From Peptococcaceae bacterium (lineage in GTDB: Bacteria > Bacillota > Peptococcia > DRI-13), in NCBI GenBank assembly GCA_020054815.1, contig JAIHAN010000002.1:1-57626 (forward strand): a stretch of DNA of 57,626 bases, written 5' to 3'. Positions 1 to 26,952 of the stretch are shown piece by piece. The notes beneath the pieces are model-generated. The model had not been told where the DNA came from. It worked only from the letters and a program-made list of their open reading frames with translations, and made no database searches. The first letter of the stretch is position 1, and each line of letters opens with the position of its first letter. Made by a program: the position numbers and the translations under genes.

Positions 1-998
1 CCGCAGGCAAGGATAAAGAGGGCCGCCGTAATAACGTAAGGACTTGCGCTTTGCCCCATGGCGCCAATCACTACATTAGCAATCATTTTACCGGCACCGG
101 TTTTGTCAAGGGCTTGGGCCAGAGGCAGCATACCTGCAAAAAGGAAGATGGTGGTCCAGTCAATGGCCCGGTAAGCCTGCTTATCTGTCATAACCTTGGT
201 AATAACGAGGACTAAAGCGCCAACTACTGCCGAAACGTGGAGGGGAACATTGATTTGTTTTTCAAAGACCATGGCTAGCACAGTGCCGATCAAGACAACT
301 AAAGAGATCATTTGTTTAGTAGAACTGACTTCTTTAACTGTCCCACCCTCAGCCTTCACAGCGGCATCAACTTCCTGTTCGTTTATAACCCTGTCGGGAA
401 TCAGCTTGTAGCCGAGGGTTACCATATAAATGATACCGGCAATTGTTAAAGGAATCCCGATCCAGGCAAACTCGAAGAAACTGAATGTCCCCAGTTTAGC
501 TGTTTCCAGAGCACCTTTGACAATCAGGTTAGGCGGTGTACCAACCAGGCTAATAATACCACCGAGACCGGCTGCCAGAGCCAAAGGCATTAAAAGCTTA
601 GAACGGCTGTAGCCGGCAGAGGCCGCAATACCTAAGGTCACAGGCATCAAGACGGCAGTGGTACCAGTGTTGGATAATACGGAAGACAAAGCAGCAGCTA
701 TCGCCATAATGGCAACAATTAATCCCTTTTCACTTTTACCTGCTACCTTAACAACACTATCACCAATCTTCTTGGCAACCCCGGTTTCAAAAAGAGCCTG
801 ACCTACAACAAACATACCGGCAAAAAGAATAACGTTGCTGTCCATCAGTCCACTAAAAGCTGTCTTAGCGTCTAATACACCAGTGAGGTGCAGGGCCATG
901 GCCACAGACATAGCAGTAACAGCCAGAGGTATAATTTCTGTCACGAAGAGAACCGCGGCAACCGCCAGAATAAGCAACGTAATTGTTGCTGCTGTCAT
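1..998 (-). CDS. DASS/SLC13-family sodium:carboxylate symporter, partial (C-terminus beyond left edge)
   Basis: Minus-strand translation from ATG at 998 (MTAATITLLILAVAAVLFVTE...) is near-identical to the 4205..5491 protein. It carries SNTGTTAVLMPVT and VGTPPNLIVKGALE motifs. It is missing from the ORF track because it is open at the window edge. Confidence 0.9.
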   Translation of the reverse strand, partial: MTAATITLLILAVAAVLFVTEIIPLAVTAMSVAMALHLTGVLDAKTAFSGLMDSNVILFAGMFVVGQALFETGVAKKIGDSVVKVAGKSEKGLIVAIMAIAAALSSVLSNTGTTAVLMPVTLGIAASAGYSRSKLLMPLALAAGLGGIISLVGTPPNLIVKGALETAKLGTFSFFEFAWIGIPLTIAGIIYMVTLGYKLIPDRVINEQEVDAAVKAEGGTVKEVSSTKQMISLVVLIGTVLAMVFEKQINVPLHVSAVVGALVLVITKVMTDKQAYRAIDWTTIFLFAGMLPLAQALDKTGAGKMIANVVIGAMGQSASPYVITAALFILAC

Positions 999-1089
999 TA
1001 ACATCAACCTCCACTTTCTTTTTTCTTTAGTTCAGCTCAAACATGGTGCTAAACTAGAGTTATCCAGGGAGTCAACCCAGCCCGACCTT

Positions 1090-1320
1090 GGTTAAGGCCG
1101 AGCAGCATTGTCAGGGGTGTTGGCCATCACCCTTCTTGCCTACGCGGATTCACACTTTACCGCCTCAGTAAGACGATGTGTGGCCGCTTTCCTTTGAAGG
1201 AAAGCGACACTGAGCAACCTGCTCTATTTAAATCGGTGTTATTTTAACCGATTTAAATCTCCTCCAAGGGGACCCAGTTACTTTGCTTATCCTTTGGGTA
1301 CCCCTCAATTAGTTGGCAGT
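1090..1320 (-). promoter_or_regulatory. Candidate structured 5' leader RNA with putative pseudoknot, upstream of the partial DASS gene
   Basis: Nested helices 1100-1105/1219-1224, 1164-1169/1209-1214, 1186-1192/1199-1205, 1144-1147/1160-1163, plus loop pairing 1151-1155/1178-1182. Confidence 0.5.
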
Positions 1321-4204: not shown

Positions 4205-5491
4205 TTACTTAGGGAAGAAAGGCCAGATCATAGGAATGAGAATGACGGAAACCACAAACATAACGAGGATTAAAGGGACACCCACTTTAACATAGTCCAT
4301 AAACCTATAGTTGCCAGGGCCCAAAACCAGAGTGTTAGGCGGGGTACCTACAGGTGTGGCAAAGGCACAGGAAGCAGCAATACCAACGGCCATCAACACC
4401 GCTCTGGGGTCTGCACCCAGACCTTTAGCAATAGCAATACCGATGGGGGCCAGAAGAGCAGCACTGGCAGTATTGGACATGAACTGAGTCAAACCGCAGG
4501 AGAGAATGAACAAGCCGCCAGTGATGACATAGGGACTGGCATCCTGACCAATAGCTCCGATAACCACATTGGCAATCATCTTGCCGGCGCCTGTTTTATC
4601 CAGAGCCTGAGCCATGGGAAGCATACCCGCAAAAAGGAAAATGGTGGTCCAGTCGATGGCGCGGTAAGCTTGTTTATCTGTTAAAACGCCGGTAATTACC
4701 AGAATGAGGGCACCAATAGTGGCAGAAACGTGAAGACCTACACCCAGCTGTTTTTCAAAAATCATAGCGAAAACTGTGCCAAGCATGACAACGACAGAGA
4801 TCATCTGTTTTGTAGGGCTAACCGCAGATTTACTGCCTGCCTCAGCTTTAACGGCAGCAGCCACTTCGCTTTCATCCACCCCCCGGTCGGGAAGGAGTTT
4901 ATAACCGATAAGAACCATATAAATAATACCGGCAATAGTAAGCGGAATACCAATAAGTCCATATTCGAAGAAACCAAAGGTTCCCAGCTTAGCAGTTTCA
5001 AGGGCCCCTTTAACGATAAGGTTGGGAGGGGTACCTACCAGGGTAATCATACCGCCGAGTCCGGCACCGAGAGCTAAAGGCATCAACAATTTTCCACGGC
5101 TATAACCGGCGGCAGCAGCGATACTGATGGTGACAGGCATTAAGACGGCAGTGGTACCTGTATTGGAAAGTACCGAAGAAAGCCCCGCGGCTACGACCAT
5201 AACCGCAACCAAAAGCGCTTTCTCATTTCTACCGGCAATTTTAACGACACTGTTACCGATTTTTTCGGCAACGCCTGTTTCAAAGAGAGCCTGACCAACA
5301 ACAAACATACCGGCAAAAAGAATAACGTTACTGTCCATGAGTCCACTGAAAGCTGCCTTGGCATCCAGCACACCCGTTAGGGTTAATGCTACCGCCACGG
5401 ACATGGCTGTAACAGCCAGGGGAATAACTTCAGTAACAAAAAGTACTGCAGCACCAGCCAGAATGAGCAACGTAATCGTTGCAGCTGTCAT
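4205..5491 (-). CDS. DASS/SLC13-family sodium:carboxylate symporter
   Basis: 428 aa; multi-TM, duplicated SNTGTTAVLMP / SNTASAALLAP and TPPNLI / TPPNTL hairpin motifs; RBS ggaggg. Confidence 0.9.
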   Translation of the reverse strand: MTAATITLLILAGAAVLFVTEVIPLAVTAMSVAVALTLTGVLDAKAAFSGLMDSNVILFAGMFVVGQALFETGVAEKIGNSVVKIAGRNEKALLVAVMVVAAGLSSVLSNTGTTAVLMPVTISIAAAAGYSRGKLLMPLALGAGLGGMITLVGTPPNLIVKGALETAKLGTFGFFEYGLIGIPLTIAGIIYMVLIGYKLLPDRGVDESEVAAAVKAEAGSKSAVSPTKQMISVVVMLGTVFAMIFEKQLGVGLHVSATIGALILVITGVLTDKQAYRAIDWTTIFLFAGMLPMAQALDKTGAGKMIANVVIGAIGQDASPYVITGGLFILSCGLTQFMSNTASAALLAPIGIAIAKGLGADPRAVLMAVGIAASCAFATPVGTPPNTLVLGPGNYRFMDYVKVGVPLILVMFVVSVILIPMIWPFFPK

Positions 5492-5587: not shown

Positions 5588-5619
5588 CACCTCCTTGAAT
5601 CGTGAAAGAATAAAAAACC

Positions 5620-5840
5620 GACCTAGCTACTTGTTTAAGTAGCTGGTCGGGCTTTTGCAAAAACAGGTACACGCCAAAGGTACCTGTGGGTCCCACTATT
5701 GACCCGGGCCAAGCTATTTAAACATACAAGCACTTATTAAGATAAGCACTCCCATGTTACTTAGCCGGGTCTTGCTCCTTAGGCGCCGCACAGGGTCGCT
5801 TGGGGCAGAACTCGTCTACCTCGCAAGGGGTGTATGAAAT
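5620..5840 (-). promoter_or_regulatory. Candidate structured cis-regulatory RNA leader with intrinsic terminator, upstream of DASS transporter
   Basis: Minus-strand motif CCTTGCGAGGTAGACG (5813-5828); helix gacccgg/ccgggtc (5701-5707/5765-5771); terminator-like CCGACCAGCTACTT..AAGTAGCTAGGTCGGTTTTTT. Shares motifs with 26330-26440. Confidence 0.6.
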
Positions 5841-5925
5841 TTAGAATAACTATTCGTTGTCTCTTTGTGAAATCCTTCTTTATACTATAATCTACATTAT
5901 TTTTAACATTTTCACAAGACATTAA

Positions 5926-25857: not shown

Positions 25858-25892
25858 ACTAGCAACTAGCAACTAACAACTACCAACTAATA
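25858..25892. repeat. AACTAGC/AACTAAC/AACTACC heptamer repeat
   Basis: ctagcaactagcaactaacaactaccaactaa. Confidence 0.6.
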
Positions 25893-26255
25893 AAATGACA
25901 GGCGCTCATTCATCAACTGCTGGCGTCCGGCGGCAAACCAGGGACTGGAATAAAGGGCGGGTGCACGTTTAATATTGGTGATCCGGTAAGTACTTCCCGA
26001 TGCCAACCCATAGGCAAAAATTGCAGCAGAAATTACAGCAGCAATCTCCGTATCATCTTCCTCAATTTTAGCCGCTGCCACCTGAGCAGGAGCTGCCTTC
26101 ATCCCAGCTTCAGGCTTCTTAATTTGCTTTGACGAAAACAGCGCTTTAACTGCATATTCCAGGAAACTAATCATAAGACTTAAACCATAGAGGGCAACAA
26201 AAACCACACCCATTCCTATTAAAGCCACCGTCAAACCAAAAATTAATGTTTGCAC
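25887..26255 (-). CDS. OadG-like sodium-pump decarboxylase gamma subunit (copy 1)
   Basis: N-terminal TM (FGLTVALIGMGVVFVALYGL), charged linker, IAAVISAAIFAY; C-terminal tail shared with 26572..26952. Confidence 0.75.
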   Translation of the reverse strand: MQTLIFGLTVALIGMGVVFVALYGLSLMISFLEYAVKALFSSKQIKKPEAGMKAAPAQVAAAKIEEDDTEIAAVISAAIFAYGLASGSTYRITNIKRAPALYSSPWFAAGRQQLMNERLSFY

Positions 26256-26329: not shown

Positions 26330-26440
26330 AAGAAAAAACCGCCCCGAACACAGTACAAGCACTTATCAAAGTACTTCCACCATGCTGCATAGGCGGGTTT
26401 GCCTTCATGAGGAAAGACCACGTCTACCTCGCAAGGGAAG
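26330..26440 (-). promoter_or_regulatory. Candidate structured cis-regulatory RNA leader/terminator upstream of OadG-like copy 1
   Basis: CCTTGCGAGGTAGACG (26421-26436, minus) identical to the 5813-5828 motif; TACAAGCACTTAT (plus notation) shared; ends in GGGGCGGTTTTTT pairing with ACCCGCC. Confidence 0.6.
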
Positions 26441-26571
26441 GCTATTTACATTGACTTAGTCAGCTAACCTGACTGGCTAAGGAGCAACTCATAGCAATAT
26501 ATTTTATTCTTCATTTGATTGTTAATTCCTGTCAGGCCACTTCAAGAATAAATCATCTTCTTTCGACATTT

Positions 26572-26952
26572 TTACCCGTAGTAACTAAGTCTTTCCTGCA
26601 TGATTTGCTGGCGCCCGGCAGTTTGCCAAGCATTATTGAGACGAGCAGGTAACCTTTTAATGGTTGTGATACGATATTGTTTTTCATCGAGAGCAGCATA
26701 TTGTGCAATAGCAGCGGCTATAACCGCAATAATTTCCAAGTCATATTCCTCATTTGTCGCAGCAACTTCGACTATTTCTTCTTTTGTTAGTCTTTTCTCC
26801 ACTGTCATTTCAGTTTTAACCGGCTTTTCTGGCTTCTTGGTCAAAGAGTTAACCGATTTTGAAAGTAAAACGATGCAGACATTGATAAATAGCAAGACAC
26901 TGAAAACTACCCCGATTCCAATGAGAGCTACGCCTAAGCCAAATCCGAACAT
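26572..26952 (-). CDS. OadG-like sodium-pump decarboxylase gamma subunit (copy 2)
   Basis: FGLGVALIGIGVVFSVLLF...IIAVIAAAIAQY...RQQIMQERLSYYG; paralogue of copy 1. Confidence 0.75.
   Translation of the reverse strand: MFGFGLGVALIGIGVVFSVLLFINVCIVLLSKSVNSLTKKPEKPVKTEMTVEKRLTKEEIVEVAATNEEYDLEIIAVIAAAIAQYAALDEKQYRITTIKRLPARLNNAWQTAGRQQIMQERLSYYG

Follow-up and report, generated by a model that had tools for sequence, protein, structure and literature searches.

The 57.6-kb window (the whole stretch of DNA that was analysed) carries two similar 5' leaders on the minus strand, here called A and B. Leader A precedes a gene for a DASS-family Na+/dicarboxylate symporter, and leader B precedes a stand-alone oadG/mmdD-like gene for the small subunit of a Na+-pumping decarboxylase (Table 1). 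The symporter is VcINDY-like, matching the solved VcINDY chains at E values of about 3e-35 and containing two SNT motifs, and its orthologue in a second species of the genus (G001) passes the NCBIfam model dass. Behind it lie a pair of DUF3870 genes, a gene for a succinate-type CoA transferase and another DASS gene, which the contig edge truncates; the same cluster in the second species runs on into genes for methylmalonyl-CoA mutase, MeaB, an epimerase and subunits of a Na+-pumping methylmalonyl-CoA decarboxylase. The gene contents of the two loci thus place both leaders on one pathway of dicarboxylate uptake, activation and Na+-pumping decarboxylation, in which the dicarboxylate taken up is probably succinate. 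The sequence-only reading had called both downstream genes plausibly Na+-coupled, and this link is strengthened by the succinate/methylmalonyl-CoA/Na+-decarboxylase cluster at A, by the oadG/mmdD-type gene at B and by oadG being a published target of the Na+-I and nhaA-I riboswitches (PMC9646797).

Another oadG/mmdD-like gene lies 5' of leader B and has no such leader before it, the covariance model described below finding only two copies in the genome. In the second species the leader B locus has been lost and an oadG remnant kept, which indicates that B is older than the divergence of the two species; the remnant adjoins a gene that reads like the hydrogenase maturation gene hypE. An oadG-like gene is also found in that species directly behind the DASS gene, that is, under leader A (L014:11067-11417(-)). 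The second DASS gene of the window (3-998) is mostly gone there. It is preceded by a different leader (1040-1310, minus strand), which is Rfam-negative, has a strong fold (z -5.2) and includes one hairpin with a compensatory change in G001 (AUUUAAAUCGGU/ACCGAUUUAAAU vs AUUUAAACUGGU/GCCGGUUUAAAU).

Leaders A and B share an exact 16-mer (CCTTGCGAGGTAGACG, block M1), then GCAA-ACCCG(G/C)CTA ... CATGG in identical order, and a 13-mer (ATAAGTGCTTGTA; TACAAGCACTTAT on the plus strand) at 5725-5737 and 26354-26366; these blocks had been listed in the sequence-only reading, and all were recovered in place and in the same order. The 16-mer has no third match in the window even when 3 mismatches are allowed (0.17 expected from shuffles), and its 15-base core has one extra site within 2 mismatches in the host genome, on another contig, with none of the remaining blocks of the motif downstream of it. 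With leader A alone as the query, nhmmer finds leader B in the window at 26439-26353 (E = 1.8e-5), and the local alignment of the two leaders scores 60, where shuffles average 17 and 0 of 400 reach that value. The alignment score and the nhmmer E value together establish homology well beyond chance, and the best explanation is that A and B are paralogues within one small family of cis-regulatory RNAs.

Table 1. Features of the two leader loci (positions in the window).
Feature	Positions	Strand	Basis
DASS-family Na+/dicarboxylate symporter gene, 3' of leader A	4205..5491	-	Pfam CitMHS and Na_sulph_symp
Promoter of leader A, predicted, sigma-70-like, TTCACA-17-TATTCT	5843..5871	-	consensus scan, 9/12
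Conserved core of leader A (aptamer-like domain and P4 hairpin)	5701..5836	-	134/136 identical in G001
Aptamer-like fold, leader A (predicted)	5747..5832	-	MFE of truncated transcript
Block M1, copy A, CCTTGCGAGGTAGACG	5813..5828	-	exact sequence match
P4 long hairpin, leader A, GACCCGGCUA...UAGCUUGGCCCGGGUC	5701..5771	-	fold; excludes aptamer-like fold
T1 terminator-like hairpin, leader A, CAGGTAC...GTACCTG-T5	5659..5686	-	read from sequence
T2 intrinsic-terminator-like hairpin with T6 tract, leader A	5612..5650	-	fold
oadG/mmdD-like Na+-pump decarboxylase small subunit gene, stand-alone, 3' of leader B	25887..26255	-	Pfam OAD_gamma 3.7e-17; TIGR01195 above cut-off
Second oadG/mmdD-like gene, 5' of leader B	26572..26952	-	OAD_gamma/TIGR01195 searches
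Aptamer-like domain, leader B (predicted)	26374..26440	-	fold with UAG/CUA enforced
Block M1, copy B, CCTTGCGAGGTAGACG	26421..26436	-	exact sequence match
P4 hairpin and intrinsic terminator, leader B, CCGCC...GGCGG-T6	26333..26398	-	fold

Comparison of leader A between the host and the second species delimits a core of 136 nt, of which 134 are identical (98.5%). Both substitutions, one in a hairpin loop and one turning a G-C into a G-U pair, are tolerated by the predicted fold, and the conserved block is bounded by the start of P1 on one side and by the end of P4 on the other. Identity is 86% in the promoter region, 69% in the spacer with T1, about 50% in the remaining leader and 80% in the DASS gene. 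The birA gene upstream of leader A is 94% identical and the other neighbouring genes 92-98%, so the core stands out most clearly when compared with the remaining leader and the DASS gene. Leader A is in this respect a structured 5' leader conserved above its surroundings, as is looked for in a riboswitch, and the comparison shows purifying selection on the core and is good evidence for a function of the leader A RNA, or of something read from exactly that stretch. The promoter match in front of it is weak when taken alone (shuffles give 1.1 sites); both hexamers are unchanged in the second species, and the predicted start, at about 5836, lies just 5' of P1. Just 5' of leader B, an inverted repeat without a T-run (TTAGCCAG...CTGACTAA, 26456-26480, minus strand) could be an operator.

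Compared with dinucleotide shuffles, folding gives z-scores of -6.1 for a long stretch of leader A and -4.6 for leader B, with the terminators contributing to both values. The minimum free energy structure of a truncated A transcript is a closed imperfect helix with M1 facing M2, with predicted pairs CACCCC/GGGaGUG (P1), UG/CA, UAG/CUA and CG/CG, and with the conserved GCGAGG placed opposite AGUAA across an internal loop. The pairing probability of P1 in this leader is about 0.95-0.97 at transcript lengths of 90-102 nt and is lost by 110 nt. Leader B adopts the fold seen in A when only UAG/CUA is enforced (P1 CUUCC/GGAAG, UGC/GCA, GUAG/CUAU and CG/CG, all predicted), at 2.7 kcal/mol above the minimum for the truncated RNA, and the state is a minority one, populated to at most 8% unaided. 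P1 alone is no better than shuffles (p 0.19 and 0.30). The P4 hairpin and the aptamer-like fold are predicted to be mutually exclusive in both A and B. The stem arms of P4 differ between the two leaders by G-U/A-U exchanges only, and two pairs at its base have changed in a compensatory way (G-C to C-G, and G-C to A-U), among three sequences in total; RNAalifold gives an unfavourable net covariation term for these three sequences, two of which are nearly identical. In these models the backing for the aptamer-like state is weaker than that for P4.

The two copies end in different ways. In leader A, P4 contains a GACCCGG/CCGGGTC helix (5771-5765 / 5707-5701) around a conserved hairpin, while in leader B the arms CCGCC (26396-26392) and GGCGG (26343-26339) run directly into T6, with block M2 and CATGG predicted to be locked inside the hairpin. 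It had been proposed for the leader upstream of the symporter gene that an outer helix encloses a conserved hairpin and is followed by a hairpin with a U-tract; the description fits A, where T1 and T2 lie further downstream, and fails for B, where the enclosing helix is itself the terminator. The expression platforms of the two copies therefore differ. A simple terminator scan reported none of T1, T2 and the leader B terminator, all three of which were read from the sequence and the folds. The 5' arm of T2 has an alternative predicted partner in the 3' strand of P4 (5719-5701), and this arm with its loop is 92.6% conserved in the second species, in contrast to the T2 3' arm, which is not conserved. 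The resulting anti-T2 duplex is predicted at -15.3 kcal/mol in the host (G000) and -17.0 kcal/mol in G001, values matched by 110/5000 and 6/5000 shuffles (p 0.022 and 0.0012). Given this alternative pairing and the conservation of the T2 5' arm, the same logic is predicted for A, as a relay, and for B, directly, namely that the aptamer-like fold would mean read-through. T1, which together with the spacer is poorly conserved (68.8% identical in G001), does not fit a simple ON relay and may be either a dead element or a second stage.

A switching model can be built from these elements. M1 (CCUUGCGAGGUAGACG) and M2 (ACCCGsCUA...CAUGG) would be opposed in the aptamer-like fold, which would form early in transcription. 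If no ligand is bound, the 3' segment that has just been transcribed (AUAAGUGCUUGUA and the P4 3' strand) would invade this fold, and M2 and CAUGG would be drawn into P4; in B, where P4 is the terminator, transcription would stop, and in A, P4 would tie up the strand able to pair with the T2 5' arm, so that T2 would form. With ligand bound, the aptamer-like fold would be held, the terminator of B could not be built, and the P4 3' strand, left free in A, would act as an antiterminator. Both leaders would then switch on their genes, which serve succinate uptake and Na+-pumping methylmalonyl-CoA decarboxylation. The analysis shows homology, selection on the core, a lack of Rfam matches, the gene context and predicted folds that exclude each other; we infer that the RNA senses unaided, that the switch is of the ON type and that A works through a relay.

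The distribution of the family was searched with a covariance model (R1) made from A, B and the leader A of G001, an imperfect alignment of three sequences. Across about 485 genomes of the phylum, it finds three copies, all in this genus and two of them in the host genome. Outside the genus it matches 0/23 other genomes of the order, 0/45 of the class, 0/397 of the phylum sample and 0/43 of the class of G329, groups that overlap in part, and searches over more than 40 genomes used stricter filters, with which distant members may be missed. Pattern searches in relatives give no copy outside the genus, plasmid records hold none, and the DASS and oadG homologue loci retrieved from elsewhere show no match to the model up to E 10; the nearest DASS orthologue (G003, 78%) keeps at most the short word CCCCTGCGAG. 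Within the genomes that could be searched, the RNA family thus appears restricted to this genus. The idea of a ligand-sensing leader RNA, put forward in the sequence-only reading, stands as the best account of Rfam-negative leaders in which conserved blocks, variable stems and a terminator are combined in a riboswitch-like manner; the copies found number three, in one genus. We consider it somewhat better than an even prospect that A and B are an orphan riboswitch candidate restricted to this lineage, acting through transcription termination and of the ON type.

The strongest rival, itself rather unlikely, is that a protein (an antiterminator or a repressor) senses the metabolic state and binds the leaders, the RNA site being the conserved blocks and the AUAAGUGCUUGUA hairpin. 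The narrow distribution, the presence of just two copies and the long conserved P4 with its near-invariant 13-mer would suit such a protein, which could use the two-state fold equally well. Against this, the conserved bases of M1 and M2 lie in small internal loops of a compact predicted fold, as in an aptamer, and no candidate RNA-binding regulator is found beside either leader among the genes examined.

It is improbable that the leaders instead belong, in diverged form, to a known class (Na+-I/nhaA or a reduced cobalamin riboswitch, for example), even though oadG is a known Na+-I/nhaA-I associated gene and the pathway includes an AdoCbl-dependent mutase. Rfam cmscan, run at gathering thresholds and up to E 10, gives no riboswitch match for leader A or B, the output consisting of eukaryotic microRNA/snoRNA-type noise and similar sub-threshold matches, so that no Rfam family matches either leader. 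Simple membership of the Na+-I (DUF1646-type) family, a sensor type raised as one hypothesis in the sequence-only reading, was rejected, as RF03071 (gathering score 40.5) has nothing at either leader to E 10 and its consensus boxes, CUUUCAAGA after P1 and GGGGUG in the P2 loop, are absent from both; the genome search with this model gave sub-threshold matches only, elsewhere. One of the sub-threshold Na+-I-like matches in the host genome (L095:1501-1552(-), 20.4 bits) has AAGAU and GGGGUG boxes and could be a diverged Na+ riboswitch. The cobalamin model (RF00174, gathering score 31.5) likewise fails at A and B and has no match in this contig; its six matches in G000 up to E 10, five of them over the cut-off, are all elsewhere, and pairwise scores of leader A against the native cobalamin riboswitches are no better than those of shuffles. 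In a genome of another class (G329), the leader of a DASS orthologue (L039:1138-1248(+)) contains, inside a closed stem, words resembling the cobalamin core, GGAA-hairpin-CGGUCACUGUGC...AAGUCAGAUACAUGG. These words lend the diverged-class reading some support and are striking by eye, but Rfam is negative and the pairwise scores do not exceed those of shuffles; a cobalamin relationship through this leader was rejected. Two other candidates were also discarded, a T-box, for which cmscan gives no match, and a leader peptide with attenuation, as the 14-codon ATG frame of A (MGVLILISACMFK plus stop) meets an early stop in B, and no good ribosome-binding site lies in front of it.

More improbable still is a duplicated upstream region, in which A and B would be similar by recent ancestry and would sense nothing, serving as plain operon leaders with terminators. 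The copies lie 21 kb apart in the same genome, and in G001 an oadG-like gene stands right behind the DASS gene; however, conservation between A and B comes in islands and shows no gradient, the terminators differ, and change in the A core is far slower than in the DASS gene or the remaining leader. The remnant in G001 also indicates that the genus had the B locus ancestrally, which speaks against a recent duplication. A DNA-level element, either an operator palindrome or a small mobile repeat, is very improbable in spite of the inverted repeats in both copies, since the hairpin arms contain G-U pairs and are poor as DNA palindromes, and the genome holds only two copies, always between a predicted promoter and a gene.

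With the orphan riboswitch candidate as the preferred reading, several guesses at the ligand can be ranked. A dicarboxylate or acyl-CoA of the pathway is the first choice, a tentative one; Na+ is a more doubtful candidate, and another metabolite, or AdoCbl or biotin, seems unlikely, to the same degree as a protein effector. The fullest form of the proposal is a new riboswitch class, confined to one genus, that would sense a substrate of Na+-coupled succinate/methylmalonyl-CoA metabolism (dicarboxylate or acyl-CoA) and turn on uptake and the Na+ pump, and in all its parts together it is a long shot. According to riboswitch surveys there should be thousands of very rare classes, and ligands such as CoA esters and biotin are listed as missing, there being no validated natural riboswitch for CoA or its acyl derivatives (PMC10043782); if the ligand is an acyl-CoA, A and B would be the first natural riboswitches for such a compound, filling a gap stated in the same source. 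A two-copy leader placed exactly on the succinate/methylmalonyl-CoA/Na+-pump pathway is a compact and testable candidate for a rare class, and the different terminators of the two copies allow straightforward in vitro tests of the switching model. If true, it would reveal how Na+-coupled energy conservation is tuned in an anaerobe.

Among known systems, a cobalamin riboswitch would suit the methylmalonyl-CoA mutase cluster, but its core boxes cannot be aligned with A or B beyond chance. The orphan candidates restricted to single genera or families, including nqrA-II (PMC11109978), resemble A and B as rare, narrow and unvalidated leader RNAs, and nqrA-II precedes a Na+-pump gene; those candidates have at least 32 representatives, several with covariation support, whereas the A/B family has three sequences. 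The nhaA-I and nhaA-II (Li+ and Na+-II) riboswitches share the alkali-ion gene context, nhaA-I occasionally occurring with oadG, but neither family has an Rfam match to either leader. The Na+-I riboswitch differs from A and B in its length of about 66 nt, its two hairpins P1 and P2 and its CUUUCAAGA and GGGGUG boxes. It resembles them in heading Na+-related genes, including oxaloacetate decarboxylase/oadG, and is a terminator ON switch whose aptamer excludes the terminator (PMC9337991, PMC9646797), the logic predicted for A and B; by this analogy leaders A and B would work like Na+-I while standing outside that family.
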